Source: a virus
Length of the DNA stretch: 33,524 bases
IMG/VR virus record: IMGVR_UViG_3300042887_002682
Span: 1 to 33,524 of that record
Reading direction: 5' to 3' (one strand)
Shown here: positions 334 to 21,844 of the stretch, one piece after another
Position numbering within the stretch: position 1 is the first letter of the stretch
Layout of the letters: every line of letters begins with the position of its first letter
Notes under the pieces: generated by a model
The model's database searches: none
What the model was told of the DNA's origin: nothing
What the model saw: only the letters and a program-made list of their open reading frames with translations
Position numbers and translations under genes: made by a program

Positions 334-340
334 CATCCAA

Positions 341-7985: not shown

Positions 7986-8000
7986 AAATAATAAACAATT

Positions 8001-10835: not shown

Positions 10836-10909
10836 TGGGGATTTGCATAATGGTAGTGCAGGAGTCTTTGAAGCTCTTTGTGGTGGTTCGATTCCATCAT
10901 CCCCAACCA
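10836..10909 (+). tRNA. tRNA-Gln (TTG)
   Basis: Acceptor TGGGGAT pairs with ATCCCCA, then A and CCA. The anticodon loop CTTTGAA gives TTG, closed by GGAGT/GCTCT with wobble pairs. T loop TTCGATT. It lies 1.5 kb from the other tRNA genes. Confidence 0.9.
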
Positions 10910-11069: not shown

Positions 11070-11108
11070 ATAGTTTTTGGATTTGGGCACCCCGGCACAG
11101 GAAACTAT
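11070..11108. repeat. 39-bp element 1
   Basis: ATAGTTT and AAACTAT ends; centre GGGCACCCC, the reverse of the common GGGGTGCCC. It is the left border of the array and lies upstream of the DUF932 gene. Confidence 0.85.
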
Positions 11109-11146
11109 GGGTCCGAAAGATTCTGAAAAAAAAGTGCGAAAAGGAC

Positions 11147-11175
11147 TTGCGGCTGATTTGATTGCCGTCTAACCT
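11147..11175 (+). promoter_or_regulatory. Possible promoter of unit 1
   Basis: TTGCGG, 17 bases, TAACCT. The ATG is 39 bases further on, so this unit would have a short leader, unlike most others. Confidence 0.4.
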
Positions 11176-11214
11176 CTGGTCCGTCAGTTAACACTTAACA
11201 TCAACACTGCACTT

Positions 11215-12075
11215 ATGACCGAGATCAACGTCACCCCCGCCACTGCCACCACTCGCGCCGATAGCTTGCTCGACTACACGGTCGAGACTATCCCGCTTCT
11301 CACCCCTGACGGCGAAGCCACTGGTTGGCTCGGCAATCGCCGCACCGACACCAAGCAGATGCTTGGGGTTTGCACTGAACGCTACACCCTCGTTCAGAAC
11401 CGCTCCCTGATGGATACCGTCGAGAACGCCTTCGCCGACAACAAGTTGGGCGAGTTCACCCGCAAGGAGTACTCCATGCGCGACGGTGCGCGAGTCTACG
11501 TCCAGTATGACTTCAAGAACCAACTGGTGAAGCTGCCCAAGGTTGGGGATGAGCTTGGCTTGCGCCTGATCCTCAACAACTCGTTCGACCGCACCTGTCG
11601 CGTCTCTTTCGAGATGGGCATCCTTCGCCTCGTTTGCACCAACGGCCTGAAGACGCTTCAGGATGAGTTCAGCCTCACCCAGAAGCACTCCGACAAGCTC
11701 GACGTTTCCCGCCTTGTGGACGTTGTGGCTGGCGCGGTCGAGGGTTTCAAGGAAAGCACCAGCGTGTTTAGCCGCTTGGCTGACCGCTCCATCAAGCAGG
11801 ATCAGGGGCACACTATCCTCGACAAGCTCACCAAGGCCAAGGTGATCGCTGACCGCAACACGGACAAAATCAAAATCATCTGGAACGACCCCTCGCACCG
11901 CGAGGACAAGAACCGGAGTCTCTGGAGCCTGTACAACGCCGTCACCCAATTCACCTCGCATCAGGTCGAGCCTACCTCATACGAACTGGCGCAACGCATC
12001 AACCGGGGCACGTTGGTCGCCCTCAACAAGGCCAGCCTGATCGAAGCCGAGTTCAAGAAACTCGCCAGCAACTAA
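11215..12075 (+). CDS. DUF932 family protein
   Basis: 286 residues. Family features: N-terminal Y-T-V-E-T-I-P-L-L, the block KQMLGVCTERYTLVQN, a beta-rich middle (ARVYVQYDF, LGLRLILNNSFD) and IGILR-type FEMGILRLVCTNGL. DUF932 proteins occur in phages and plasmids and their activity is unknown; some resemble phage-encoded DNA-associated proteins. The gene is clearly GC-rich with G or C at most third positions, unlike its AT-rich neighbours, pointing to a different origin. It is alone in unit 1, with its own terminator. The minus-strand frame opposite it is a shadow. Confidence 0.85.
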   Translation: MTEINVTPATATTRADSLLDYTVETIPLLTPDGEATGWLGNRRTDTKQMLGVCTERYTLVQNRSLMDTVENAFADNKLGEFTRKEYSMRDGARVYVQYDFKNQLVKLPKVGDELGLRLILNNSFDRTCRVSFEMGILRLVCTNGLKTLQDEFSLTQKHSDKLDVSRLVDVVAGAVEGFKESTSVFSRLADRSIKQDQGHTILDKLTKAKVIADRNTDKIKIIWNDPSHREDKNRSLWSLYNAVTQFTSHQVEPTSYELAQRINRGTLVALNKASLIEAEFKKLASN

Positions 12076-12102
12076 CGCCAGATCGCCAAATAGAAGCAGC
12101 AC

Positions 12103-12128
12103 GGGGCATCCTACGGGGTGCCCCTTTT
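12103..12128 (+). terminator. Predicted terminator of unit 1
   Basis: GGGGCA pairs with TGCCCC, followed by TTTT, 12 bases before element 2. Confidence 0.65.
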
Positions 12129-12139
12129 CGCTGCCCACG

Positions 12140-12178
12140 ATAGTTTTCGGGTCTGGGGTGCCAGAATAAAAAAACTAT
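12140..12178. repeat. 39-bp element 2
   Basis: Inner arms TCTGG and CCAGA pair perfectly around a GGTG loop; the outer ATAGTTTT/AAAACTAT stem is also perfect. The stem is broken only between them. Confidence 0.85.
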
Positions 12179-12187
12179 GAAAAACCC

Positions 12188-12215
12188 TTGCAATCTCATG
12201 CCCATGAATTACTAT
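12188..12215 (+). promoter_or_regulatory. Leaderless promoter of unit 2
   Basis: TTGCAA, 16 bases, TACTAT; ATG follows after seven bases (TTCCCCG). Confidence 0.65.
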
Positions 12216-12222
12216 TTCCCCG

Positions 12223-12486
12223 ATGACAAAACGTAAAACGGTTAGCCTTGAATCAGTCAAACTGAAAGCCAATCACTTCTTTTGCACCAGCAAAAACGAA
12301 GCGATCATTCAACGCAGAACTCTCCAGTTCTTCGTGACGGACCTGCTGATGGAAGCAAAGCAATACAAGGGTTTCAATTATTTACATAAACATCATGTCG
12401 AAGAAGGTTTGACATACGGCATCGAATGGGACGAAGCTGGCAAAGAGAAAACTTTCAAAGACGAGTCAAGAATTTTCTTTCATTAA
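12223..12486 (+). CDS. Small conserved phage protein (87 aa)
   Basis: Only gene of unit 2. Starts MTKRKTVSLESVKLKANHFF and contains R-R-T-L-Q-F-F-V-T-D-L-L and YKGFNYL, a pattern I associate with uncharacterised phage proteins. Base composition is intermediate between the neighbours. Start set by a promoter seven bases upstream; no Shine-Dalgarno. Confidence 0.7.
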   Translation: MTKRKTVSLESVKLKANHFFCTSKNEAIIQRRTLQFFVTDLLMEAKQYKGFNYLHKHHVEEGLTYGIEWDEAGKEKTFKDESRIFFH

Positions 12487-12490
12487 GCTT

Positions 12491-12526
12491 CAAATATTAA
12501 AAACATTAACCGCAAATAAGTCAAAT
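12491..12526 (+). repeat. A-rich flank repeat, copy before element 3
   Basis: CAAATATTAAAAACATTA then CGCAAATAAGTCAAATAA, nearly identical to the copy before element 1 over 36 bases. Confidence 0.6.
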
Positions 12527-12556
12527 AAGCCTCGATTTGATAGATTGGGGTTTATT
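12527..12556 (+). terminator. Weak predicted terminator of unit 2
   Basis: AAGCCTC pairs with GGGGTTT (two wobble pairs), followed by ATTATTA. Confidence 0.4.
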
Positions 12557-12567
12557 ATTACATTTTG

Positions 12568-12606
12568 ATAGTTTTTGAAACTGGACACCCCGGCGCGAAA
12601 AACTAT
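12568..12606. repeat. 39-bp element 3
   Basis: Centre GGACACCCC, the reverse orientation like element 1. Outer ATAGTTTTT/AAAAACTAT pairs for nine bases. Confidence 0.85.
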
Positions 12607-12626
12607 TGAAAAACGCAACAAAAGTG

Positions 12627-12655
12627 TTGCGCTGGTTTGCCCTTTGCGTTAACCT
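12627..12655 (+). promoter_or_regulatory. Leaderless promoter of unit 3
   Basis: TTGCGC, 17 bases, TAACCT; seven bases then separate it from ATG 12663. Confidence 0.55.
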
Positions 12656-12662
12656 TTCCATG

Positions 12663-13295
12663 ATGAATCTTGACCTTGCCCTTGACCTCGTTGGTGGACT
12701 CTCTGCGCCCTCAAAAATGCCGTGCCGTTCCTATTCAATCCCGGCAAAGTATTGTAAAACGGGCGGAAAATTAGTGTCTATTAAGAATAGTGTTTGTTCT
12801 AAGTGTTATGCATTAAAAGGTTTCTATAACATGCCCAATGTCAGAAACGCTTTACAAAAACGATTTGACTCTATTAACAAACCCGAGTGGGTTGACGCTA
12901 TGACTATTGCTATTGCTGGAAAAGAAACTAGTGGCTATTTCCGGTGGCATGATAGTGGAGATATTCAATCTGTGGAGCATTTGAGAAAGATTTGTCAGAT
13001 TGCTATCAATCTTCCTAGTATTAAATTCTGGTTACCCACTAGGGAATATTCATTTGTTACTCAATACAAGAAACAATTTGGTGATATTCCTTCCAATCTC
13101 ACTATTCGCCTTTCTTCCCTAATGATAAATGGCAATGCGCCTACTGGTATTGCTAAGATATTAGGATTAACGACTTCTGGTGTGTCAAAAGATAAAACAT
13201 TCAATTGTCCTGCCTCCAATCAAGATAATAAATGTATCAATTGCCGCGCCTGTTGGGATAAATCAGTTAAAAACGTTAGTTACAAATTGCACTAA
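12663..13295 (+). CDS. GP88-like protein (phage gene product 88 family)
   Basis: 210 residues. Cysteine signatures: CSKCYALKGFY near residue 40 and, at the end, CPAS-N-Q followed by C-I-N-C-R-A-C-W. These are hallmarks of the phage GP88 family, whose activity is unknown; the cysteines could bind zinc or an iron-sulphur cluster. The middle (SGYFRWHDSGDIQSVEHLRK) is well ordered. ATG 12660 and 12663 are adjacent; 12663 fits the seven-base leaderless rule. The first codons are GC-rich and the rest AT-rich, a composition break inside the gene. Confidence 0.75.
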   Translation: MNLDLALDLVGGLSAPSKMPCRSYSIPAKYCKTGGKLVSIKNSVCSKCYALKGFYNMPNVRNALQKRFDSINKPEWVDAMTIAIAGKETSGYFRWHDSGDIQSVEHLRKICQIAINLPSIKFWLPTREYSFVTQYKKQFGDIPSNLTIRLSSLMINGNAPTGIAKILGLTTSGVSKDKTFNCPASNQDNKCINCRACWDKSVKNVSYKLH

Positions 13296-13363
13296 TGATT
13301 ATAGCAATACTTGTAATAATATTAGTTATAGGTATAATAACAGAAAACAATAAAAGAAAATGA
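13295..13363 (+). CDS. Possible membrane peptide (22 aa)
   Basis: ATG overlaps the GP88 stop and the TGA overlaps the next ATG (ATGA), so it would be translationally coupled on both sides. Sixteen of its first 18 residues are hydrophobic (MIIAILVIILVIGIIT), then NNKRK. Shape of a single-span membrane peptide; position is the main support. Confidence 0.4.
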   Translation: MIIAILVIILVIGIITENNKRK

Positions 13364-13554
13364 CACAAGAAAAGCAGATAACTAAGTTGCAAACTAAAAT
13401 CAATAACCTTAAGCAGATGAAAAAGTCTGCAAGGCTATTGTTAAACAGACGCGAAAAGATTCGCGCCGAATTAGCGAGTATTAGAAAAGACCTTAATAAT
13501 ATTCGTTTCAAAGTCTATAGGTGTATTGACAAGAGCCAAAATATTAAAGAATAA
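13360..13554 (+). CDS. Small coiled-coil protein (64 aa)
   Basis: Overlaps the upstream peptide by four bases. Nearly all of it is a charged helix (KLQTKINNLKQMKKSARLLL, REKIRAELASIRKDLNNIR) with heptad-like leucine and isoleucine spacing. The preceding single-span peptide could be its membrane anchor partner, an inference. Confidence 0.6.
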   Translation: MTQEKQITKLQTKINNLKQMKKSARLLLNRREKIRAELASIRKDLNNIRFKVYRCIDKSQNIKE

Positions 13555-13577
13555 AGCAACAAATAACAAATAAAGCA

Positions 13578-13607
13578 CCCTCTAGTGTTTAACACTAGGG
13601 GGTTTTT
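13578..13607 (+). terminator. Predicted terminator of unit 3
   Basis: CCCTCTAGTG pairs with CACTAGGGGG around TTTAA, followed by TTTTTC, and ends four bases before element 4. Confidence 0.85.
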
Positions 13608-13610
13608 CGC

Positions 13611-13649
13611 ATAGTTTTTGGATTCGGGGTGCCCGGATCTGGAAACTAT
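13611..13649. repeat. 39-bp element 4
   Basis: Best-paired copy: allowing G-U pairs, all 18 bases of one arm can pair with the other around a GTG loop (inner arms GATTCGGG and CCCGGATC). It lies between convergent units 3 and 4, with a terminator on each side. Confidence 0.9.
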
Positions 13650-13671
13650 AAAACCCCGCCCGAAGGCGGGG
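13650..13671 (-). terminator. Predicted terminator of unit 4
   Basis: CCCCGCC pairs with GGCGGGG around a CGAA loop, and its T tract on the minus strand merges with the end of element 4. Confidence 0.75.
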
Positions 13672-13687
13672 TGATGTTGCTATTGTA

Positions 13688-14563
13688 TTACCAAGCTTTC
13701 CACATAGTCATCCAAGCCTTACAAGCCGCAAGTGTGCCTGTACTAATATTGTGTTTGTTACAGATTTCACTATCACTAACACGTTCTTTCAAATCCGCAT
13801 AGACGGCACTCAATTCGCGTTTATTGAGAACCAATTTAGTCTTATTAAGATTGATCTTTTTGTCTTTCTTTTCGTGAGTAATGAAGTCTTTAACCTGCAA
13901 AGAGCGATTTGTAATAACATTCATGTCATTACTGACACAGATAGTCATCATGGGATTTTGATTTGACACATACTCAAAAGACCAAATCAGTGACAAACCT
14001 AAATCAATAGCCAATCGCAGCAAGTAGCATTGAATGGCATATCCTTTGTTGTATTGATTGGCAACTTCAAGAATCTCAGGGCTAAGATTACTGACAGAAC
14101 GCCAGTGTGTATTGAAAGTAAAAACAAAAGTAGCAGTCTTGCCCTTAGCGGTATTAATTAAATCAAGATTTTGTGTAGTAGGATTACCGCAGAAATCAAA
14201 CCATGCGAAAATGTTTTTGGATTTGAGTTTATTAACACTATCAGCGTTTATGTATTCATTACGATAAGTAATATTAGAACAAGAAAGCATGTATGCGCTA
14301 GTCTTGTTATGCGGAAAGATAGCAGCAACTGGGCGCAAGTTGCTCTGATACTCACTGCTGTCACATTCAAACAGTGACATTTCAAGACCATATCCGTTTG
14401 TAGTAAACGTATTAGAATAGTCTCTGTGATTAACAACGTATTTCTCAAACTCCCACGAAGAACCGGGGAGTGATATGACACTAATGTCTATTTTGTTTTG
14501 CGCGAAAGCGTCATAGGCTTTGCAAACGAGGTGGCGGATAGCGTTTTTAACTGTGTTATTCAT
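13688..14563 (-). CDS. Hypothetical protein with a C-terminal helix-turn-helix-like end (291 aa)
   Basis: Single gene of unit 4. ATG 14563 fits the promoter; an upstream TTG would overlap the -10. The central part has a hydrophobic strand followed by WFDFCGNPTTQNLDL and ATFVFTFNTHWR, suggesting an alpha/beta fold with a conserved glycine-cysteine site. The last 40 residues (RVSDSEICNKHNISTGTLAA) look like a helix-turn-helix. It is AT-rich. No named family; a methyltransferase-like or other nucleic-acid enzyme fold is possible but unproven. Confidence 0.7.
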   Translation of the reverse strand: MNNTVKNAIRHLVCKAYDAFAQNKIDISVISLPGSSWEFEKYVVNHRDYSNTFTTNGYGLEMSLFECDSSEYQSNLRPVAAIFPHNKTSAYMLSCSNITYRNEYINADSVNKLKSKNIFAWFDFCGNPTTQNLDLINTAKGKTATFVFTFNTHWRSVSNLSPEILEVANQYNKGYAIQCYLLRLAIDLGLSLIWSFEYVSNQNPMMTICVSNDMNVITNRSLQVKDFITHEKKDKKINLNKTKLVLNKRELSAVYADLKERVSDSEICNKHNISTGTLAACKAWMTMWKAW

Positions 14564-14571
14564 ACGCCCCA

Positions 14572-14600
14572 ACAGTAGCCCTTGAAAGGGAAAGCGTCAA
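14572..14600 (-). promoter_or_regulatory. Leaderless promoter of unit 4
   Basis: On the minus strand TTGACG, 17 bases, TACTGT, then eight bases to ATG 14563. Confidence 0.65.
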
Positions 14601-14627
14601 TGGAAATGATCACTTTTCTTGCAAGGG

Positions 14628-14666
14628 ATAGTTTTTTCCTTCGGGGTGCCCGATTCCAGAAACTAT
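14628..14666. repeat. 39-bp element 5
   Basis: Right half is the same as that of element 10 except one base, while the left half (TTTTTTCCTTCGGG) differs. Centre GGGGTGCCC. Confidence 0.85.
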
Positions 14667-14667
14667 G

Positions 14668-14688
14668 AAAAACCCCGCCGAAGCGGGG
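14668..14688 (-). terminator. Predicted terminator of unit 5
   Basis: CCCCGC pairs with GCGGGG around CGAA, with an A tract (T tract on the minus strand) touching element 5. Confidence 0.75.
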
Positions 14689-14695
14689 TTGTGAT

Positions 14696-14884
14696 TTAAT
14701 CTCTTTGTATAATAGTTTTAAGGGCTTGTTTCCCTTTTTCTATTGAATCAATATCTAAATGATACAATTTATGCCAGTCTTCATGTTTTAATGACATTAG
14801 CTCTTTGATACGGCGTTCTGCGTTATTTAGTGCTACACGGAGTTCTACTACTTCTTGTATTGTTATTTTTAATTCTGCACTCAT
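14696..14884 (-). CDS. Small coiled-coil protein (62 aa)
   Basis: Last of the unit 5 genes. Mostly helical (ITIQEVVELRVALNNAERRI) with heptad-like spacing. It overlaps the preceding gene by four bases (ATGA), so the two are coupled. No family recognised. Confidence 0.65.
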   Translation of the reverse strand: MSAELKITIQEVVELRVALNNAERRIKELMSLKHEDWHKLYHLDIDSIEKGKQALKTIIQRD

Positions 14885-15162
14885 GCTGTTCTTAGGTTAT
14901 TATTGAATCTATAGTAATTGCCAACGCTTTTGAGATAGTAATCGAAGTCTTTAATCAACTTATAGTGAATAGAATATTTGTAATTCCTTTTCTTGGCTTC
15001 GTCAATGAAGATAGAAGCATCACAGTCTTCCTCTAAGTAAGCAAAGTCTCTTGTTCTATAACTATACTCTGATATTAAGATATCAATATTCCAGTCTTCA
15101 AGCAATTTATGAGGAACGCGAAGCCAACCGTGGCCGGGGTCAGAAAGAAAAGTGAGTTCCAT
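14881..15162 (-). CDS. Conserved phage protein of unknown function (93 aa)
   Basis: Starts MELTFLSDPGHGWLRVPHKL and contains YLEEDCDASIFIDEAK, a pattern I recognise from uncharacterised small phage proteins. The ATG at 15162 is chosen over an upstream start at 15213 that would overlap the membrane peptide. It follows a short single-span peptide gene and precedes a coiled-coil gene in the same unit. Confidence 0.75.
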   Translation of the reverse strand: MELTFLSDPGHGWLRVPHKLLEDWNIDILISEYSYRTRDFAYLEEDCDASIFIDEAKKRNYKYSIHYKLIKDFDYYLKSVGNYYRFNNNLRTA

Positions 15163-15166
15163 ATTA

Positions 15167-15268
15167 TTAAAAGATAATATTGTAAACCACAGTAACACTA
15201 ACAACAGTAGCAATGACGAGTAATGTAATTACAGTATTTATGATTCTATCAAAGGTTTTGTTGCTCAT
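15167..15268 (-). CDS. Single-span membrane peptide (33 aa)
   Basis: Begins MSNKTFDRIINT, then a hydrophobic stretch (VITLLVIATVVSVTVVY) and ends NIIF. It lies four bases after the lysozyme-like gene and four bases before the next start, the tight spacing of real genes here. A membrane peptide beside a cell-wall enzyme suggests a lysis accessory role, but this is inference. Confidence 0.55.
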   Translation of the reverse strand: MSNKTFDRIINTVITLLVIATVVSVTVVYNIIF

Positions 15269-15272
15269 ATTA

Positions 15273-15665
15273 TTACAAGTGTTTTTTGATTTTATTCCAG
15301 TATTTATCAGTATCTTTTTTGCGCCAATTAGGACCGCCATTATGCAAGCGAGCCAAAGTCTCTATGTCATTATTGGCAAAAGCTTTAGGCTCATATCGCA
15401 TAAAGTAACGCTCACAGACCTTACGGGCGACCGCAGGGTCATACACCTGACTATGCGCCCCCTTGACTCCAGCGTCAAGAAAATACATGGGGCGGATTTG
15501 GTAAATTCCAAGGGCAGTTTCCTTGGCGTTGATTGCCTTGGGATTGCCTGAAGATTCAACTTGGGCCATTGCGCGAAACAAGTCTTCCTTCGTGCCGTGG
15601 TTGCGGCGGGAAAACCCAAGGGTTACAAGGGCGACGACAAATAGAGACAAAGTGATTTTGTTCAT
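15273..15665 (-). CDS. Secreted lysozyme-like or transglycosylase-like protein
   Basis: 130 residues. Starts with a signal-peptide-like segment (MNKITLSLFVVALVTLGFS). The catalytic region reads FRAMAQVESSGNPKAIN, with Glu37 in the position of the catalytic acid of lytic transglycosylases, followed by ALGIYQIRPMYF and later ARLHNGGPN, both usual in the SLT/lysozyme fold. It would cut peptidoglycan outside the membrane, as endolysin or ejection enzyme. First gene of unit 5; a membrane peptide follows it. Its minus-strand promoter is seven bases upstream. Confidence 0.82.
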   Translation of the reverse strand: MNKITLSLFVVALVTLGFSRRNHGTKEDLFRAMAQVESSGNPKAINAKETALGIYQIRPMYFLDAGVKGAHSQVYDPAVARKVCERYFMRYEPKAFANNDIETLARLHNGGPNWRKKDTDKYWNKIKKHL

Positions 15666-15672
15666 GTGAGAG

Positions 15673-15700
15673 AAAATATCAGATTCTTGGAGAGTGTCAA
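15673..15700 (-). promoter_or_regulatory. Leaderless promoter of unit 5
   Basis: Minus strand TTGACA, 16 bases, TATTTT, then seven bases to ATG 15665. Confidence 0.7.
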
Positions 15701-15718
15701 AGATTTTTTTTCGATTTG

Positions 15719-15757
15719 ATAGTTTTTTGATTCGGGGAGGCCAATTTCGGAAACTAT
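15719..15757. repeat. 39-bp element 6
   Basis: Centre GGGGAGGCC, a variant core. Outer arms keep ATAGTTT/AAACTAT. Inner arms pair poorly except GG/CC and scattered bases. Confidence 0.85.
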
Positions 15758-15759
15758 GA

Positions 15760-15778
15760 AAGCCCCGCCGGGGCGGGG
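15760..15778 (-). terminator. Predicted terminator of unit 6
   Basis: CCCCGCC pairs with GGCGGGG with a two-base gap, next to element 6. Confidence 0.65.
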
Positions 15779-15785
15779 TTACTAT

Positions 15786-15980
15786 TTATTTGAAGTTTAC
15801 AATACTACGTCCACTCTGTAGTAGTATAATGCAAATCGGCGGAACAGTTGCGCCTGTATCTAAAAGAGCCTTTATGTAAGTACGTTCTGCAAGTTTTCCG
15901 CTTCTGGTATCGGGCTTTATACTATCACCCATCCATTCTTTTAAGTTAGCTTGTATCTGTTGAAGTGTGAGAGCTTTCAT
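15786..15980 (-). CDS. Hypothetical protein (64 aa)
   Basis: Third gene of unit 6, overlapping the previous stop by four bases. N-terminal helix (LQQIQANLKEWMGDSI), then a threonine and glycine turn (ALLDTGATVPPI). AT-rich. No family recognised. Confidence 0.6.
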   Translation of the reverse strand: MKALTLQQIQANLKEWMGDSIKPDTRSGKLAERTYIKALLDTGATVPPICIILLQSGRSIVNFK

Positions 15981-16159
15981 TTGCTTTTAAGGATTTCTTT
16001 TAGTGTTACAATTCTTATATGACTATAGTGTGCGTTTTTAGGGAAAGGATTTGGGTGTTTAATCTTCCAAAGGTTTTGTAAGTAATTGATTTCTGATTGG
16101 ATTTCTTCTTTTGATTTATCAGTAGCCCAACACTCGGCAGCATAGACAGATTCTCTCAT
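15977..16159 (-). CDS. Hypothetical protein (60 aa)
   Basis: Second gene of unit 6, two bases after the DUF2958 gene. Starts MRESVYAAECWATDKSKEEI; helical, then H and P rich (KHPNPFPKNAHYSH), with a helical end. AT-rich, unlike the GC-rich DUF2958 gene that precedes it in the same unit, so the unit itself is a composite. Confidence 0.6.
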   Translation of the reverse strand: MRESVYAAECWATDKSKEEIQSEINYLQNLWKIKHPNPFPKNAHYSHIRIVTLKEILKSK

Positions 16160-16161
16160 AA

Positions 16162-16467
16162 TTAAACAGCCGCGAGGGTTTCAAGTTCAAAGTAATTCAC
16201 GCCTTCCTTGGGTTGCCAGTACAAGTCACGCTCAATGGTCATTCCAAGCGGTCCCTTGATTGCTTCCAATTCTTCCACGGAAGCGATCCCGCCCCATTCA
16301 ACGCAACCCATGCCCAAGTCAGCGAACCCGTAAAGGATGCCACCTTCGATCCCAGTGATCAACCAAGTAACGGCACCCCACGGGGTGAAAAGCTTACAAA
16401 TGGGGACCATGCCGTCAGAACCGGCCTTGTTGAGTTTTTCGGTAAGTTGTTTCGTCATCAATTTCAT
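16162..16467 (-). CDS. DUF2958 family protein
   Basis: 101 residues, the normal size. Family pattern: MKLMTKQLTEKL at the start, KLFTPWGAVTWLITG, LYGFADLGMGCVEWG, then VEELEAIKGPLGMTIERDLYW. DUF2958 proteins are found in phages and plasmids; activity unknown. ATG 16467 (not the more upstream 16593) matches a promoter at the seven-base distance. First gene of unit 6 and clearly GC-rich. Confidence 0.85.
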   Translation of the reverse strand: MKLMTKQLTEKLNKAGSDGMVPICKLFTPWGAVTWLITGIEGGILYGFADLGMGCVEWGGIASVEELEAIKGPLGMTIERDLYWQPKEGVNYFELETLAAV

Positions 16468-16474
16468 CGGGGAC

Positions 16475-16503
16475 AAGTTAATAGAATCGGCGTTGATTGT
16501 CAA
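16475..16503 (-). promoter_or_regulatory. Leaderless promoter of unit 6
   Basis: Minus strand TTGACA, 17 bases, TAACTT, then GTCCCCG and ATG 16467. Confidence 0.72.
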
Positions 16504-16521
16504 AAAGAAAAATCGTTTTTC

Positions 16522-16560
16522 ATAGTTTTTTTGTTGGGGGTGCCCATTGCCCGAAACTAT
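16522..16560. repeat. 39-bp element 7
   Basis: Inner arms TGGG and CCCA around GGTG; the outer arms are ATAGTTT/AAACTAT. The middle of the stem does not pair. Confidence 0.85.
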
Positions 16561-16623
16561 CGAAAGGATTCGCGTCTGTTTCATGAGGGTCAAAACCCAA
16601 AAGAGAACAAGTCTTATTCTCTT

Positions 16624-16655
16624 AGAAAAAACCCTGCCGCAGGATCTCCCTGCGT
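16624..16655 (-). terminator. Predicted terminator of unit 7
   Basis: On the minus strand CGCAGG pairs with CCTGCG and a TTTTTT tract follows. This hairpin is also the first copy of a repeated sequence. Confidence 0.55.
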
Positions 16656-16736
16656 ACCATTTGACGCGAACCCAATCTAAAAAGCGGTGTTTCTAAAGGT
16701 TCAACTAACCCGCCGCAGGGTCTCCCTGCGTACCAT
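16636..16736. repeat. Duplicated 25-bp hairpin sequence
   Basis: GCCGCAGG-TCTCCCTGCGTACCAT occurs at 16636-16660 and 16712-16736 with one difference; each copy folds (CGCAGGG with CCCTGCG). The 51 bases between are not repeated. The second copy lacks a T tract. Confidence 0.65.
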
Positions 16737-16759
16737 GCCGCTTGTGCCTTAACCCGCCC

Positions 16760-16960
16760 TCACTTCGACTTCGAAGGGGGCAAAATTTGTTTGAAATGAA
16801 TCAGACCACCGGAGAGGTCACGAATCAACTCGCGCTCCACACTAGTGATGGTTTTCTTTCCCGTCAAGCGGTAAATGATGTTTGCGTCACCTTCGTTGGC
16901 AACGTACTCGCGCAGGTTGCCGTAGACTTCGCGGTTGTAAAATTCAATCGTTTTGCTCAT
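16760..16960 (-). CDS. Small conserved phage protein (66 aa)
   Basis: Starts MSKTIEFYNREVYGNLREYV; NREVYGNxxxY, then LTGKKTITSVERELIRDL. I recognise this as an uncharacterised phage protein pattern. Single gene of unit 7, GC-rich. The start is set by a promoter nine bases upstream. Confidence 0.7.
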   Translation of the reverse strand: MSKTIEFYNREVYGNLREYVANEGDANIIYRLTGKKTITSVERELIRDLSGGLIHFKQILPPSKSK

Positions 16961-16969
16961 GACCCCTAC

Positions 16970-16997
16970 AGATTAAACTTTGGCCCGAAAGAGTCAA
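16970..16997 (-). promoter_or_regulatory. Leaderless promoter of unit 7
   Basis: Minus strand TTGACT, 16 bases, TAATCT, nine bases to ATG 16960. Confidence 0.6.
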
Positions 16998-17038
16998 ATA
17001 AAAAACCAAAAATCTTTTTCTTCGCGGGAGCGAAGGGG

Positions 17039-17077
17039 ATAGTTTTTGCGTCTGGGGTGCCCCGTTCTGGAAACTAT
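17039..17077. repeat. 39-bp element 8
   Basis: Centre GGGGTGCCCC. Right half ends CTGGAAACTAT as in element 4; left half (TTTTTGCGTCTGGG) differs. Confidence 0.85.
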
Positions 17078-17079
17078 GA

Positions 17080-17097
17080 AGCCCCGCCGAAGCGGGG
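17080..17097 (-). terminator. Predicted terminator of unit 8
   Basis: CCCCGC pairs with GCGGGG around CGAA, next to element 8. Confidence 0.65.
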
Positions 17098-17106
17098 TGA
17101 GTTTTT

Positions 17107-17385
17107 TCAGTAAATCATCTTGACTTTTCCCCAAGCCGAGTCTTCAAGGACTTGGTTCAACTTGTCAATGGTTTTCTTCTTCTCTTCTTCGCCGATGATG
17201 CCGTTCATGAAGTAGCGAACGTCGGAGCGATAGGCCATAAGCTGGACGCGCATTTCCAGAAAAATGTCTTGACTGACTTGCACTTGGGTTGTGGGGACTT
17301 CGGCGACGGGAGTTTCCTCCGTGGGCGCAATGGCGATGAGGTCGCGGAGGTCGCTGGCGGTGTCGATGTGTTGGTGTTGATTCAT
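17107..17385 (-). CDS. Hypothetical protein (92 aa)
   Basis: Single gene of unit 8, GC-rich. Acidic, proline and threonine rich linker (APTEETPVAEVPTTQ) after an N-terminal histidine-rich start, then a helical region (EEEKKKTIDKLNQVLED). No family recognised. The start is set by a promoter nine bases upstream. Confidence 0.65.
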   Translation of the reverse strand: MNQHQHIDTASDLRDLIAIAPTEETPVAEVPTTQVQVSQDIFLEMRVQLMAYRSDVRYFMNGIIGEEEKKKTIDKLNQVLEDSAWGKVKMIY

Positions 17386-17394
17386 GACGGGGAC

Positions 17395-17422
17395 AAGTTA
17401 TCAGATTGGCGGCAGTTGTCAA
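17395..17422 (-). promoter_or_regulatory. Leaderless promoter of unit 8
   Basis: Minus strand TTGACA, 16 bases, TAACTT, then GTCCCCGTC and ATG 17385. Nearly the same box and start as unit 6. Confidence 0.7.
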
Positions 17423-17494
17423 AAAATATTCCAATTTGACGCAAATAAAGTGCAAATAAAGAGCTTGACAAGGCTTGCCGCCTATGCTCTCGGC

Positions 17495-17533
17495 ATAGTT
17501 TTTGGATCTGGGCAGCCCAAAACGGGAAACTAT
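17495..17533. repeat. 39-bp element 9
   Basis: Left 18 bases are identical to those of element 10; the right half is different. Centre GGGCAGCCC pairs TGGG/CCCA. It lies between divergent units 8 and 9. Confidence 0.85.
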
Positions 17534-17628
17534 CGATTAGGTATCAAAATTGGTCAAAAATACCTGTTTACTCCTTCCGTGGGCGTGGTAAGCTTCAGTG
17601 TCGGACTGTTCTTATTTATAAACACAAC

Positions 17629-17826
17629 ATGAGTACTAATACAAAAACCACAATCAAGTTTAGTGATTTAGAGGAAGTGATTATCACTAACTCTGGAACC
17701 GCCAATGCGTATGTCGATTCCGCTTTTCATAAACAATTGAATCGCGATTTAACAGAAGCTGAGTGTGATAGTATCACTGATTTATACTTTCAGGAATTGT
17801 ACGAATTGCATCTCAGCCGCTTCTGA
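17629..17826 (+). CDS. Small phage protein (65 aa)
   Basis: First gene of unit 9. Starts MSTNTKTTIKFSDLEEVI; LNRDLTEAECDSITDLYFQ is a helical block with conserved acids seen in uncharacterised phage proteins. AT-rich. Upstream is TATTTATAAACACAAC, which resembles the TATAAATA-type sequence of unit 13. Confidence 0.65.
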   Translation: MSTNTKTTIKFSDLEEVIITNSGTANAYVDSAFHKQLNRDLTEAECDSITDLYFQELYELHLSRF

Positions 17827-17834
17827 TAAATCAT

Positions 17835-18092
17835 ATGCATCTCATTCCTATTGTAAACGGAACCCTTAAAAACAAAGGGAATCTCAGTGTTTGTAACTCC
17901 AAAATTAATGTGTTTGGTTCTGATATTGCTGTTGAAGTGATATTCGATTATGATCTCGAAACTCGCCAACAGTATGTCAGTATCGTTGCTTATGATAAAT
18001 CAGTGTTTGATGCTGATTCTATCACTGAGATTGACGAATACATTCTGACAAACGCTATTGACAAATGGAATCAATACATAAATGAACCATAA
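17835..18092 (+). CDS. Hypothetical protein (85 aa)
   Basis: Second gene of unit 9, eight bases after the first. Beta-rich and acidic (SDIAVEVIFDYDLETRQQYV). AT-rich. No motif recognised. Confidence 0.6.
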   Translation: MHLIPIVNGTLKNKGNLSVCNSKINVFGSDIAVEVIFDYDLETRQQYVSIVAYDKSVFDADSITEIDEYILTNAIDKWNQYINEP

Positions 18093-18110
18093 ATAGTAAT
18101 ACCACAAGAG

Positions 18111-18140
18111 ACCCGCTGTAGCAATACGGCGGGTTTTTTT
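18111..18140 (+). terminator. Predicted terminator of unit 9
   Basis: ACCCGC and GCGGGT with an outer T-rich tail (TTTTTTT). Confidence 0.8.
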
Positions 18141-18144
18141 GTGT

Positions 18145-18214
18145 CAAATATTAATCAAATGTTCTGCAAATAATAACCAAATATAAATAAAGAATAGTGA
18201 TTTATCACTGATTT
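18145..18214 (+). repeat. Left-flank repeat of element 10
   Basis: CAAATATTAA block, then AGTGATTTATCACTGATTT (18196-18214) just before element 10. The same two blocks occur at 20030 and 20080-20098, left of element 13. Confidence 0.6.
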
Positions 18215-18235
18215 ATCACTATTTCATAGTTTTTG

Positions 18236-18274
18236 GATCTGGGGTGCCCGATTTCAGAAACTATCCCGAAGCAA
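18236..18274. repeat. 39-bp element 10
   Basis: Shares its left half with element 9 and its right half (one mismatch) with element 5. Centre GGGGTGCCC. Confidence 0.9.
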
Positions 18275-18277
18275 ATC

Positions 18278-18329
18278 TCATACCAAAGCCAATTGTTAAA
18301 TTCTGGTGACAAATCACTTTTGCCCTTGA
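18278..18329 (+). repeat. Shared leader right of element 10
   Basis: Aligns without gaps to the sequence right of element 12 for over 50 bases (GAAGCAA, ATTGTTAAATTC, GTGACAAATCACTTT). A looser relative lies at about 21239-21300. Probably a promoter or leader region. Confidence 0.6.
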
Positions 18330-18383
18330 TTTGAGATGAAAAGTCAGTGACAATGTGCGCGACGGTAAAAACCATAAAAAACT

Positions 18384-18593
18384 ATGTATCAAACCACTGC
18401 CGCCCAAAGCAAAGCCGAAACCGCCCTTGGCAAGAAAGGGTTTCGTTTCTCGACTTGGCTTCCGTTTGAACCGGATGCCAACAATCAACCGGCGCAAGGC
18501 ACTGAACACCTTGGAACAATTGTAATGGTTAAACGTGTCACTCGGTTCTCCACTGAGTATCGCGAAATCGAACCCGATGGTTCTATAAACTAA
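18384..18593 (+). CDS. Small phage protein (69 aa)
   Basis: First gene of unit 10. Starts MYQTTAAQSKAETALGKKGF with later VKRVTRFSTEYREIEPDG. It belongs to a pattern I associate with uncharacterised phage proteins; GC content moderate. Leader of about 110 bases. Confidence 0.65.
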   Translation: MYQTTAAQSKAETALGKKGFRFSTWLPFEPDANNQPAQGTEHLGTIVMVKRVTRFSTEYREIEPDGSIN

Positions 18594-18612
18594 ATCACTA
18601 TCTAATAACAAT

Positions 18613-18816
18613 ATGGCTTGTGAAGATTATCCGTGTTGTGGGCACGAAGCTGGCGGTTGCCCCGTCATCGACGAAAACGGCGCAGAGCGTTTCCATTGCG
18701 CCCGTTGCAGCGTTTTGATGCCCCCGAAGGCACGGAGCGCGGTTTGCCAACCCTGCCATTCTGAGTGGCAGCGCGGGTGGGACGAAGACCCCACTGGGCA
18801 AGATTCTGATTGGTGA
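18613..18816 (+). CDS. Zinc-binding small protein (67 aa)
   Basis: Starts MACEDYPCCGHEAGGCP; further CARCSVLMPP and CQPC follow. The four cysteine pairs make one or two zinc sites likely. This resembles a small phage zinc protein family of unknown role. Second gene of unit 10, GC-rich compared with the flanking DNA. Confidence 0.75.
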   Translation: MACEDYPCCGHEAGGCPVIDENGAERFHCARCSVLMPPKARSAVCQPCHSEWQRGWDEDPTGQDSDW

Positions 18817-18835
18817 AATAGTGATAAATAAACAG

Positions 18836-18865
18836 CCCCGTTGTATTAGTACAGCGGGGTTTTTT
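18836..18865 (+). terminator. Predicted terminator of unit 10
   Basis: CCCCG-TGT pairs with ACA-CGGGG, followed by TTTTTT that runs straight into element 11. Confidence 0.8.
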
Positions 18866-18904
18866 ATAGTTTTCGCTTTTGGGCAGGTCAAAAAGAAAAA
18901 CTAT
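18866..18904. repeat. 39-bp element 11
   Basis: Inner arms TTTTG and CAAAA; centre GGGCAGGTC is the most divergent. Left half shares CTTTTGGG with element 12. Confidence 0.85.
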
Positions 18905-18913
18905 CAAATTGAT

Positions 18914-18941
18914 TTGCAATCTCATTCCCGTCAGCTACCCT
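18914..18941 (+). promoter_or_regulatory. Leaderless promoter of unit 11
   Basis: TTGCAA, 16 bases, TACCCT, nine bases to ATG 18951. Spacer TCTCAT-CCC matches that of unit 2. Confidence 0.6.
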
Positions 18942-18950
18942 TTGGGCACC

Positions 18951-19367
18951 ATGAGTTCCTCCTCCTGCCCCGCCACTACCGCCGCCACCCTCGCGCTCGC
19001 GCATGAGGTGAAGGCTGTCATTCAACAAATCAACGATTGCGCTAATAACATAACAAATGCTAATTTCCATTCTGCTAGTGATATTGCTTTGGAGCTTGAT
19101 AAGATCAATTGCAGACTAGCTTCTGTTTGTCACTCACTTGGATTGAAAGATCTTTCTGATAGTATTAAAGTGGGAGACAAGTTTTTGCATTTTGGTTTCT
19201 ATCGCCCCCGTACTTGTATAGTTAATTCTATACATGGATCTACTGTTTATTGGAAGACTAATGATAATCCTGAATTGACTAGGTGCGGAAGTTCTTGCAT
19301 TAGTTCTTTTGAATTGCGTGAAATGCGCCCCTTTATTGGTAAAGAATGGACATTGAAATGGGACTAA
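18951..19367 (+). CDS. Hypothetical protein (138 aa)
   Basis: Single gene of unit 11. N-terminal Ser/Cys/Ala-rich segment, GC-rich, then helical (ALAHEVKAVIQQINDCANNI) and AT-rich from about residue 25, so the gene is a composition hybrid. The C-terminal half (SIKVGDKFLHFGF and RTCIVNSIHGSTVYW) is beta-rich, like a small SH3-type barrel. Role unknown. Confidence 0.65.
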   Translation: MSSSSCPATTAATLALAHEVKAVIQQINDCANNITNANFHSASDIALELDKINCRLASVCHSLGLKDLSDSIKVGDKFLHFGFYRPRTCIVNSIHGSTVYWKTNDNPELTRCGSSCISSFELREMRPFIGKEWTLKWD

Positions 19368-19396
19368 CTTTGTTAAATAGATAACAAATAACATAA

Positions 19397-19425
19397 CTCC
19401 GTTATACTACTATAGCGGAGTTTTT
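19397..19425 (+). terminator. Predicted terminator of unit 11
   Basis: CTCCG-TAT pairs with ATA-CGGAG, followed by TTTTT, which abuts element 12. Confidence 0.8.
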
Positions 19426-19464
19426 ATAGTTTTTGCTTTTGGGGTGCCAAAATCGGAAAACTAT
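19426..19464. repeat. 39-bp element 12
   Basis: Inner arms TTTTGG and CCAAAA around GGTG, a perfect six-base inner stem. Outer arms ATAGTTTT/AAAACTAT. Confidence 0.9.
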
Positions 19465-19525
19465 GGTGAAGCAAGGACCATGCCAAGTGCGATTGTTAAA
19501 TTCCTGTGACAAATCACTTTCGCCC

Positions 19526-19553
19526 TTGTTTTCCCTTGTGCGGGTGTTATGGT
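19526..19553 (+). promoter_or_regulatory. Leaderless promoter of unit 12
   Basis: TTGTTT, 16 bases, TATGGT, seven bases to ATG 19561. Confidence 0.5.
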
Positions 19554-19560
19554 GTGGACG

Positions 19561-19977
19561 ATGAAAACAACAATGCAGTCGCTGATCGAAAAAATCGAAT
19601 CCCATCCTGACTTCAACGTGCCGCAAGGCGCGTGGGTCAGTGTGTATCGCCGAAGCCAGAACTACGGTGGACCGGAGGAGGGCGGATGGTGGTACGATAG
19701 GAATACGCTGGAGGGGTCAATTTACTTCCCCACCACGGAGGGGGCCGAGGCTTGGCTTGAAAAGGCCAAGGCGGAAGTGGAGCGCGAGAACCGCGAGGAA
19801 GCCCCTGCGCGGTATCGTGCGATGGCCGCGCTTCCGGGCGAGGAATGTGACACGGCGTACCACGATGAGGGCTACATCCCCACAGGATGGAACGATGGCG
19901 GCGAACTGTGGGTGACCATCGAACAGGTGCGGGGCGAGTGTGACAATAGCGCGGAGCCTCGCCCACATTATGAATAA
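19561..19977 (+). CDS. Hypothetical acidic protein (138 aa)
   Basis: Single gene of unit 12, clearly GC-rich. ATG 19561 (not 19549) fits the promoter. Helix MQSLIEKIESHPDF is followed by a glycine and tryptophan segment (NYGGPEEGGWWYDRNTLEGS) and a long acidic helix (EAWLEKAKAEVERENREEAP). No family recognised. Confidence 0.65.
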   Translation: MKTTMQSLIEKIESHPDFNVPQGAWVSVYRRSQNYGGPEEGGWWYDRNTLEGSIYFPTTEGAEAWLEKAKAEVERENREEAPARYRAMAALPGEECDTAYHDEGYIPTGWNDGGELWVTIEQVRGECDNSAEPRPHYE

Positions 19978-19996
19978 ACACTAAACAAATACAATA

Positions 19997-20026
19997 CCCC
20001 GCTGTGATAAACAGTGGGGTTTTTTT
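19997..20026 (+). terminator. Predicted terminator of unit 12
   Basis: CCCCGCTGT pairs with ACAGTGGGG, followed by TTTTTTT; it stands some 75 bases before element 13. Confidence 0.8.
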
Positions 20027-20029
20027 GTG

Positions 20030-20098
20030 CAAATATTAAATAAATATTAAACAAATAAAGGCCAAATAATAGTAGTACTAGTGATTTATCACTGATTT
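20030..20098 (+). repeat. Left-flank repeat of element 13
   Basis: Second copy of the left-flank blocks found at element 10, ending two bases before element 13. Confidence 0.6.
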
Positions 20099-20099
20099 C

Positions 20100-20138
20100 A
20101 TAGTTTCTGGATTCGGGGTGTCCAAAATCAAAAACTAT
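20100..20138. repeat. 39-bp element 13
   Basis: Left half resembles element 4 (one base differs); right half differs. Centre GGGGTGTCC uses a G-U pair. Between convergent units 12 and 13. Confidence 0.85.
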
Positions 20139-20166
20139 CGCTATTTATAAACAACTATTTATAAAC

Positions 20167-20194
20167 AAGAAACCCCCTGTATTACTACAGAGGG
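20167..20194 (-). terminator. Predicted terminator of unit 13
   Basis: Minus strand CCCTCTGT pairs with ACAGGGGG, followed by TTTC. Confidence 0.7.
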
Positions 20195-20252
20195 TTTGTC
20201 ACTAAGGCTTATCTAGTCATGCCTATTAACACGACAACAAGAAGTAGTATTA

Positions 20253-20450
20253 TCATAGCATGAAATCATAGTATTGCTTATTCAATTTAGCTAGACCTCT
20301 AGTAAGGCTATCTCTTTTATCAACAAAGATGTCCTTATTGTAATTACCTTTGTCACACTCTGCTATAAGCGTATTACATTTGTCTATCTCTGCTTGAATA
20401 GCAATTCGTATATCAATCATTTCCATAACACTTATTTTATTAGCATTCAT
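20253..20450 (-). CDS. Small helical protein (65 aa)
   Basis: Second gene of unit 13. Mostly helical (MIDIRIAIQAEIDKCNTLIA, then KRDSLTRGLAKLNKQYYDFM), with heptad-like spacing. AT-rich. Unknown. Confidence 0.65.
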   Translation of the reverse strand: MNANKISVMEMIDIRIAIQAEIDKCNTLIAECDKGNYNKDIFVDKRDSLTRGLAKLNKQYYDFML

Positions 20451-20504
20451 AGTGTTTTAGTATTAAATGCGCGTTTATAGTATTCGCGCCCCACTGTTTA
20501 TATA

Positions 20505-20933
20505 TTAGCCTTCTACGTTTACCACGTTATCAATAGACATAGTGAGAAACTTGGGTTTATCACTATCACTACGATATTGTTGAATAGCGTTGTACTCTTC
20601 TTCAGTAATAGGACGGCCATCAACAAACAAATCGAACTTGTTTTTGGGATTGTTGTGAGGAATCCCAGCCAAATACAATTGGCCGGTCTTTTTGTTTCTC
20701 ACTAAACCGTCTTTAACAAACTCAAACCAAGTAGGTTTACCAACAGCGTCAGGGAATATATTATTATAAGTATCTTCTCCCGCAAGCGATATAGTAAAAC
20801 GAAAGTCCCTAGTGACACGGCCTTTGTATATATTTAAGGGTATACCACTACGGCCACCAGTCTTCAATTCATATTCGCCTTGTAGTAGTATAGTTGCAAT
20901 GTGACCAGCCTTAATTGTATTTATATTGATCAT
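20505..20933 (-). CDS. Paralog of the unit 14 protein, AT-rich copy (142 aa)
   Basis: First gene of unit 13. Starts MINI-NTIKAGHIATILLQG; TGGRSGIPLN and GRVTRDFRF follow, and near the end FVDGRPITEEEYNAIQQYR. Each block has a match in the neighbouring unit 14 protein (KAGHIATIL/RAGHLATIL, GRVTRD, VDGRxxTxxE). This copy is AT-rich, the other GC-rich, so they were not duplicated recently. ATG 20933 has two TATATAAATACAAC copies upstream on its strand. Confidence 0.75.
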   Translation of the reverse strand: MININTIKAGHIATILLQGEYELKTGGRSGIPLNIYKGRVTRDFRFTISLAGEDTYNNIFPDAVGKPTWFEFVKDGLVRNKKTGQLYLAGIPHNNPKNKFDLFVDGRPITEEEYNAIQQYRSDSDKPKFLTMSIDNVVNVEG

Positions 20934-20937
20934 GATG

Positions 20938-20968
20938 TTGTATTTATATAGTGACGTTGTATTTATAT
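20938..20968 (-). promoter_or_regulatory. Duplicated TATAAATA-type motif upstream of unit 13
   Basis: On the minus strand TATATAAATACAAC occurs twice, the nearer copy directly before ATG 20933. TATAAATA is the T4 late-promoter core; that these are late promoters is inference. Confidence 0.45.
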
Positions 20969-21055
20969 AAGAACCAAACTGACTATGCCAATTTACTATA
21001 TACTTATATATATACAAGAACTAAATCTACTTTAATTTTCTACGTTAACGGGCAC

Positions 21056-21092
21056 TTGGCACGACTCTTGCTGGGGAGCAGGAACCATGCCA
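21056..21092. repeat. Nested hairpin repeat, copy 1
   Basis: TTGGCA...TGCCA outer arms around an inner TGCTGGGGAGCA hairpin. Two further copies lie at 21176-21213 and 21221-21257; a half copy follows this one. Confidence 0.6.
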
Positions 21093-21123
21093 GAGCAGGA
21101 AACGTGCCAACCTATGGGCAACC

Positions 21124-21162
21124 ATAGTTTTCGGAATTGGGGACCCCAGATTGGAAAACTAT
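21124..21162. repeat. 39-bp element 14
   Basis: Centre GGGGACCCC with TTGGG/CCCAG arms; the outer ATAGTTTTC/GAAAACTAT stem runs nine bases. It sits among the nested hairpin repeats, between divergent units 13 and 14. Confidence 0.85.
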
Positions 21163-21376: not shown

Positions 21377-21844
21377 ATGGGAATCCAAATTGGACAGATT
21401 CGCGCCGGTCACCTCGCCACCATTCTGGTCACGGGCGCACATGAAATGGCAACGGGCGGACGCATGGGACGCCCCTTGAACCCGTTGACGGGCCGAGTCA
21501 CACGGGACCATCGAATTGTCGCCCGTGTGTCGGGCGTGGAAACGTACCGCCGACGCTTGGAGAAGCAGGGACGCACCCCGGCAGGTGCGCCGACTTATTG
21601 GCAATGGGTGCGCGACGACGAAGGCAACGTGATCGATGGATTGGCTGTTCACAAGACCGATGGGACGCTGTACCTCGTTTGCGATCCGACAACCGCGCAA
21701 CGTACCGTGCGGTATCTCGTTGACGGGCGTGAAGCGACCCCGAAGGAATTGCAAACCATTGAAGCCTACCGGAAGAAAAAAAACGCCACCCCGCCCGACA
21801 TCCTCCTTTTCAAGCTCGACACGGTGGCGAACCTAGAACCTTGA
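21377..21844 (+). CDS. Paralog of the unit 13 protein, GC-rich copy (155 aa)
   Basis: Starts MGIQIGQIRAGHLATILVTG with TGGRMGRPLNP, GRVTRDHRI and VDGREATPKELQTIEAYR. Same order of blocks as the unit 13 protein. Conserved G-R-V-T-R-D suggests a binding site, function unknown. It is GC-rich and has a strong terminator. The ATG at 21377 is chosen because the upstream frame covers the leader. Confidence 0.75.
   Translation: MGIQIGQIRAGHLATILVTGAHEMATGGRMGRPLNPLTGRVTRDHRIVARVSGVETYRRRLEKQGRTPAGAPTYWQWVRDDEGNVIDGLAVHKTDGTLYLVCDPTTAQRTVRYLVDGREATPKELQTIEAYRKKKNATPPDILLFKLDTVANLEP

Follow-up and report, generated by a model that had tools for sequence, protein, structure and literature searches.

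A 39-bp dyad joins the accessory-gene cassettes of a phage array and is a candidate site for their arm-specific exchange

How do phages gain, lose and reorder their small accessory genes? Such changes are usually ascribed to random illegitimate recombination followed by selection. The question is posed in an unusual form by IMG/VR virus record IMGVR_UViG_3300042887_002682, a phage genome fragment of 33,524 bases (hereafter the window, by which we mean the whole stretch analysed). In a single stretch at 11070-21162 it carries 14 copies of a 39-bp dyad that delimit thirteen cassettes of one to three genes each, while dinucleotide-shuffled versions of the window contained a mean of 0.56 and a maximum of 3 such dyads. 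Since the cassettes run + + + - - - - - + + + + - (and are followed by a + border gene), the dyads stand at tandem, divergent and convergent junctions alike, with one dyad per boundary whatever the gene orientation. The G+C content of the array is 34-54%, compared with 31-36% for most of the remaining window outside the tRNA region. The window also encodes a terminase, a PhoH-like protein, endonuclease VII-type proteins, an ERCC4-type nuclease and seven tRNAs. The region is best read as the accessory-gene cassette array of a large freshwater-type phage, in which the dyads are the joints and each cassette, made up of co-oriented genes and in most cases equipped with a terminator of its own, is a self-contained transcription unit. 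We propose, tentatively and as a reading that falls just short of being probable, that cassettes are exchanged at these dyads in a site-specific manner that depends on the dyad arms.

The dyad has the form ATAGTTT-N8-GGGGTGCCC-N8-AAACTAT, with a core of the pattern GGG N3 CCC. Among 37 non-redundant elements of this type (type A), 514 of the 518 arm positions, at 14 positions per element, were conserved. The outer positions of the core were also strongly conserved, its middle base was A or T about equally often, and the N8 stretches varied. Read inwards, both halves of the dyad approximate a common half-site close to ATAGTTTYYGNATYYGGG. The outer arms pair with each other, and some dyads fold well when single-stranded, but selection on a hairpin or RNA was rejected by a half-swap test that revealed no compensatory pairing: the N8 halves of one element formed 3.32 Watson-Crick pairs, as compared with 3.70 when halves were swapped between elements. 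As the true halves pair no better than swapped ones, the symmetry looks like that of a duplex DNA site with two protein-binding halves.

Among 2.9 million viral contigs, a pattern scan picked out 22 stretches from 15 further phage contigs with 1 to 19 dyads each, which brings the contigs with type A dyads to 16 including the window. All phage records in this comparison are metagenomic contigs and thus fragments. The scan of 84,980 bacterial and archaeal species genomes returned no arrays and three single scattered matches, so the system has been seen only in phages. Clustering of the cassettes gave 26 families. The arrays share a backbone order and differ by the presence, absence, replacement and order of cassettes, and some families are flipped between phages (the last cassette families 1 versus 18 and 20, and 8 versus 21). 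The cassette inversion that we examined has one edge exactly at a dyad and the other elsewhere.

Evidence on the point of exchange comes from recombinant junctions. At a flank score of at least 35 out of 60, 36 junction pairs had homologous left sides, as far as the dyad, and unrelated right sides; in 18 pairs it was the other way round. A stricter test demanded that the left 40 bp and the right 40 bp of a junction each match, at 34 or more of 40 positions, two different junctions of one other contig. Seven of 113 junctions qualified as recombinants, which change partner within the dyad or at its edge, and in six of these the left N8 was identical (8/8) to that of the left parent. The junction at 5250 of contig c9183 consists of the exact left half of one parental dyad and the exact right half of the other (N8 8/8 and 8/8, flanks 39/40 and 39/40), with the switch in columns 21-27; it joins cassettes 6 and 3 where contig c35661 has the order 6-14-12-4-3. 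A weaker second case is the junction at 7005 of c27123 compared with c35661 (N8 8/8 and 8/8, left flank 59/60, right flank 60/60), which fails the strict filter because the left flanks of the parents resemble each other. Between unrelated junctions, 8/8 agreement of the N8 occurred in 1.6% of pairs on the left and 0.5% on the right. An exchange point within the site is a general property of site-specific recombination, and it is displayed by these seven junctions, one of them an exact hybrid; a junction that switches at the outer edge is considered below.

Further evidence is provided by relatives with a 96-99% identical terminase that seemingly lacked the element. At the same locus these carry a dyad of the form AGAGTTGC-N7-core-N7-GCAACTCT (type B). 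Among about 170 dyads in 20 contigs, 16 contigs were purely A and 4 purely B, with no mixed array and no A/B hybrid dyad; solo half-dyads were found in neither the A nor the B arrays. On a tree of the 6-kb backbone the arm type needs three changes, all of which are forced by strongly supported branches. The cassettes themselves occur in both types: cassette 3 of b32331 matches an A cassette at 96.4% identity over 91%, and cassette 0 of b42868 is 95.7% identical over its full length to cassette 15 of c35661. In such A/B alignments the DNA is near-identical up to the dyad, at which point the dyads differ. Over 45 A/B cassette ends, identity was 92% at more than 40 bp from the dyad and dropped to 50% in the final 5 bp, where same-type ends still had 86% (A/A) and 91% (B/B) identity. 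Because same-type ends keep their identity and A/B ends lose it, the dyad takes part in exchange within a type; exchange at the dyad between A and B was not seen among these arrays. Moreover, no array is mixed despite cassettes up to 96% identical in both types, and the backbone tree needs at least three switches. The arms are therefore probably read by a sequence-specific factor that acts across the array.

Two more distant relatives have a variant of this dyad. L232 has B-like arms around a longer GGGGGG...CCCCCC core, giving dyads of 45-47 bp at 240, 1898 and 5140, as well as two half-dyads broken in the core, near 4175 and 5283; L237 has a dyad of the same kind (45-47 bp) at 723.

The near-invariant arms, the two half-sites, the array-wide uniformity and the repeated coordinated switching together point to a sequence-specific protein. 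The dyad at every boundary irrespective of gene direction, together with the recombinants at the dyad, suggests that this protein acts in cassette joining, and the dyads at convergent junctions argue against promoter or operator use. In the mechanism that we envisage, the arms would be two outer half-sites of 7-8 bp with their centres 32 bp (about three helical turns) apart, bound by a sequence-specific protein encoded by the phage. This protein would most likely be a recombinase that acts on the dyad as a dimer or tetramer and links dyads with matching arm types in or beside the GGG-N3-CCC core, whereby cassettes would be lost, gained and turned over. A and B would be two specificities of one system, and cassettes would cross between A and B solely through ordinary homologous recombination within cassette bodies. 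The array looks like a gene-swapping system distinct from the known bacterial integrons. The broader view that it is an integron-like but unrelated phage-borne exchange system, with at least two arm specificities swapped between lineages along with the array and with the arms as a compatibility code for the direct trade of cassettes, is possible, and we hold it with considerable reserve.

In this array the joints are visible; their arms hardly vary, they come in two versions that are incompatible with each other, and the switch in a recombinant joint is resolved to a few bases. Should an enzyme work on the dyads, phages would own a cassette platform outside the integron world. If no enzyme does so, the array is a natural experiment in which an array-wide DNA code is kept uniform while the cassettes move.

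Several results weigh against exchange at the dyads. No tyrosine or serine recombinase domain was found in 48 related or possibly related phage records, all of them fragments, nor was there a match to PF00589, the IntI-type tyrosine recombinase family, in these records; likewise, no recombinase was present among the families listed for 69 scanned proteins (Pfam, PHROGs, NCBIfam). The core triplet is variable (GTG, GAG, GAC, CAG and others), which would be unusual for a recombinase in need of identical crossover sequences. One of the seven recombinants (c28394, 3413) switches at the outer left edge of the dyad, and in three of the seven the right N8 agrees with that of the right parent at only 4/8 positions. 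Over all pairs, the linkage of an N8 to its own flank was weak (left only, p = 0.07; right only, p = 0.89). Not every breakpoint lies at the element, where the sequence-only reading of the window had placed them: at low stringency, alignment ends were only about two-fold enriched within 5 bp of dyads (14% versus 8%), and for matches of at least 94% identity there was no enrichment at dyads. Between the window and its nearest array relative, c42332, both length differences lie inside cassettes. Finally, the cassette order is broadly conserved, so exchange is infrequent.

Some of these results are expected if each transcription unit carries one dyad as the binding site of a phage regulator or DNA-organising protein, while ordinary homologous recombination shuffles the cassettes and selection keeps all dyads matched to that one regulator. 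This explanation, which we judge a real possibility though on the doubtful side, accounts for the missing recombinase and for breakpoints inside cassettes, and it attributes the decay of A/B homology in the 40 bp next to the dyad to homologous recombination combined with selection for own-type dyads. It likewise accounts for near-invariant arms, a uniform arm type per phage and coordinated switching, as in the stoperators of cluster A mycobacteriophages, 13-bp sites mostly oriented with transcription whose types differ between subclusters together with the repressor (PMC6550527). Like stoperators, the dyads occur in many copies per phage and their consensus shifts coordinately between phage types, in the case of stoperators with one cognate protein. 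Unlike these oriented sites, the dyads have symmetric half-sites, are 39 bp long and mark cassette boundaries in every gene orientation. A second regulatory precedent is SPBRE of SPbeta, a 15-bp promoter-region motif bound by the repressor MrpR, which has a tyrosine-recombinase fold (PMC10516654). The passages of that source on SPBRE portray it, too, as a repeated phage-wide intergenic element, read by one phage protein, and MrpR as described there is an example of a recombinase fold that serves sites of this kind; the same passages describe no cassette array or exchange at the element. The dyad differs from SPBRE in that it is 39 bp long and also lies between convergent terminators, and the phage records gave no PF00589 match by sequence. 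Against a purely regulatory role speak the dyads between convergent genes, where they are shielded by terminators, and the recombinants at or inside the dyad, where the parents have only short matches in common; in addition, stoperators and SPBRE are sites of 13-15 bp that are oriented or promoter-linked.

A different explanation dispenses with a sequence-specific protein, and to weigh it the flanks of the individual dyads in the window have to be considered. The dyads and the two modules beside element 10 are as follows.

11070-11108, dyad element 1, left end of the array, about 160 bp past tRNA-Gln
12140-12178, dyad element 2, tandem + / + junction
12568-12606, dyad element 3, + / + junction
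13611-13649, dyad element 4, convergent junction, with a scanned - terminator to its right (13672-13653)
14628-14666, dyad element 5, - / - junction
15719-15757, dyad element 6, - / - junction
16522-16560, dyad element 7, - / - junction
17039-17077, dyad element 8, - / - junction
17495-17533, dyad element 9, divergent - / + junction
18099-18225, + strand, left module of element 10: terminator, A-rich CAAATATTAA stretch and AGTGATTTATCACT palindrome, common to element 13
18226-18264, dyad element 10, + / + junction, the element on which the sequence-only reading centred
18268-18332, + strand, right module of element 10: conserved presumed promoter stretch, common to element 12
18866-18904, dyad element 11, + / + junction
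19426-19464, dyad element 12, + / + junction
20100-20138, dyad element 13, convergent junction with opposed scanned terminators on either side (19996-20020, +; 20197-20170, -)
21124-21162, dyad element 14, right end of the array, divergent junction

To the left of element 4 there is also a terminator-like hairpin with a T-run that is absent from the list of the terminator scan.

Elements 10, 12 and 13 lie where they had been placed, within a set of 14 sites that is far above chance. The left flanks of elements 10 and 13 are indeed similar, with a local alignment score of 82 compared with at most 32 in 100 shuffles; this alignment stops at a distance of 11 bp from element 10 and 1 bp from element 13. 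The right flanks of elements 10 and 12 share 65 ungapped columns from the fourth base past the element (score 65 versus at most 24). As had also been claimed, the right flank of element 13 and the left flank of element 12 show no significant match to the corresponding flank of element 10; the left flank of element 12 matches that of element 11. The block that elements 1 and 3 were said to share on their left is present (35/38 identical, score 61 versus 25), but it is not a breakpoint at the element because 78 bp and 39 bp lie between its end and the two elements. The shared left modules comprise a terminator, an A-rich stretch and AGTGATTTATCACT, and the shared right module is the conserved presumed promoter stretch. 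The similarities within the window are repeated regulatory modules that several cassettes share anyway, and they prove less than the earlier view of them as direct traces of recombination implied. Exchange at the element draws its support from other phages instead, namely from the recombinant junctions, the exact hybrid dyad, the presence and absence of cassettes and the inversion.

Repeated intergenic modules of this kind, with a hairpin, promoter or terminator, could be homology patches for general phage recombination. A precedent is given by the promoter early stem-loops (PeSLs) of T4-type phages (Arbiol 2010 and Comeau 2014, as described in PMC4503421), which like the dyads are repeated intergenic elements with small genes shuffled around them. 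In line with this, terminator/A-rich modules on the left and promoter-like modules on the right are common to several dyads, alignment ends are enriched within 60 bp of dyads (40% versus 24%), and some dyads fold well single-stranded. We nevertheless regard the explanation as unlikely. The conserved stem-loop of PeSLs has no counterpart here, since the arms pair but the N8 halves do so no better than swapped halves, which indicates that the full hairpin is not selected. PeSLs contain an early promoter; promoter-like matches in the region of the array were at chance level (23 versus 20.2), with a consensus that may not be that of the host. Furthermore, the arms are nearly invariant while adjoining bases drift, and all dyads of an array switch arm type together, which homology patches have no need to do. 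The dyads also differ from PeSLs in their symmetric two-half-site structure, in which no promoter was detected, the separate terminators that flank them, their place at convergent junctions and the coordinated switching of arm type.

A literature search, with most subscription journals and preprints outside its reach, returned no description of this element. The arrays do resemble integron attC arrays in their rows of mostly single-gene cassettes, with short imperfect dyads between them, in the gain and loss of cassettes, and in a dyad that is uniform within an array and differs between lineages. Integron cassette arrays without integrase (CALINs) have been reported in phages (Qi et al. 2023, PMC9892861), and a CALIN with attC sites carried by the phage would fit the single-gene cassettes in a row, each followed by a short imperfect dyad. 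This is most improbable. The R'/R'' boxes (GTTRRRY) of attC were not found in the arms, as read off the arm sequences with no dedicated attC search being run; all 93 distinct elements have ATAGTTT/AAACTAT or AGAGTTGC/GCAACTCT with at most three mismatches. Unlike integron cassettes, those described here have a dyad of fixed 39-bp length, lie in both orientations, have their own terminators and come with no IntI that we could find in the 48 records. In integrons the site travels with the cassette, whereas here a cassette body can turn up in an array of the other type unaccompanied by its dyads. On at least one tested defining feature each, the dyads depart from attC, stoperators and SPBRE; of the two PeSL features considered, they lack the conserved stem-loop.

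An assembly artefact or chance repeats, which might be suspected because every sequence is a metagenomic contig, can hardly be the explanation, given the same arrays in many independent metagenomes, 14 sites versus 0.6 expected, and matches between the parent dyads of recombinants that are too short for assembler joins.

The genes of the window were identified through codon-position substitution patterns. The cassettes and the gene that borders the array are listed below.

11215-12075, +, cassette 1 gene, DUF932 protein (Pfam PF06067; substitution pattern)
12223-12486, +, cassette 2 gene, 87 aa, no assigned function (substitution pattern)
12606-13295, +, cassette 3 gene, GP88-family protein (Pfam PF17338; substitution pattern)
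13688-14572, -, cassette 4 gene, 294 aa, no assigned function (substitution pattern)
14696-15665, -, cassette 5, three co-oriented genes at 14696-14884, 14881-15213 and 15273-15665 (substitution pattern)
15786-16593, -, cassette 6, three co-oriented genes, the last a DUF2958 protein (Pfam PF11171; substitution pattern)
16760-16960, -, cassette 7 gene, 66 aa (substitution pattern)
17107-17385, -, cassette 8 gene, 92 aa, weak coding signal (substitution pattern)
17629-18092, +, cassette 9, two genes at 17629-17826 and 17835-18092 (substitution pattern)
18384-18816, +, cassette 10, two genes at 18384-18593 and 18613-18816 (substitution pattern)
18879-19367, +, cassette 11 gene, weak coding signal; its mechanical reading-frame start overlaps element 11
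19549-19977, +, cassette 12 gene, 142 aa (substitution pattern)
20253-21017, -, cassette 13, two genes, the second (20505 to about 20935) paralogous to the border gene
21377-21844, +, border gene right of the array, about 155 aa, without Pfam match

The listed open reading frame (ORF) of cassette 3 starts on the edge of the element, and its true start is probably downstream; in cassette 6 the mechanical ORF start runs past element 7. Defence genes were not detected as cargo, in that PADLOC gave no match among the 69 scanned proteins, a set that leaves out the DUF932 and GP88 cassette genes.

Homologues of the border gene occupy the same place in the examined A- and B-type contigs, and this family of 142-155 aa without Pfam match is found beside the last dyad and again in the last cassette of both A and B arrays. 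The border protein, of 145-155 aa, was considered as a recombinase and set aside, as it had no Pfam match, a low-confidence model and no significant fold match. A second class of dyad, TTGGCAY-N6-TGCTGGGGAGCA-N6-RTGCCAA of about 38 bp, starts at 21056, 21176 and 21221 of the window; it surrounds the last element of A-type arrays and stands at the right end of B-type arrays, and half copies of it recur in cassette promoter stretches. At the opposite end of the array, tRNA-Gln (10836-10909) lies about 160 bp to the left of element 1, and it adjoins the left end of the array in record L033 as well. tRNA genes are often found at insertion boundaries.

Outside the array, a 173-kb contig (L165 / L167) was considered as the missing half of the genome and rejected as a different phage, which shares only a few small genes and has no dyads; the shared genes are at the left end of the window (1-849 and 2509-2769, 78-93% identity), through which the contig was found, and the array is not shared. 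In L156, L158, L159, L161, G004 and G013, ORFs of about 1700 to 4500 aa lie downstream of the terminase and vary in length between close relatives; one scanned protein, noted with these giant ORFs, matches a sigma-70 factor family. Repeats based on CCCTAGGG occur at 7801-7998 of the window and at 1-165 of L093, where they have a 13-bp tandem period, and are unrelated to the 39-bp dyad. Lastly, genes of the YopX / TIGR01671 type are duplicated in tandem at 1068-1857 of the window, together with their leader sequence.

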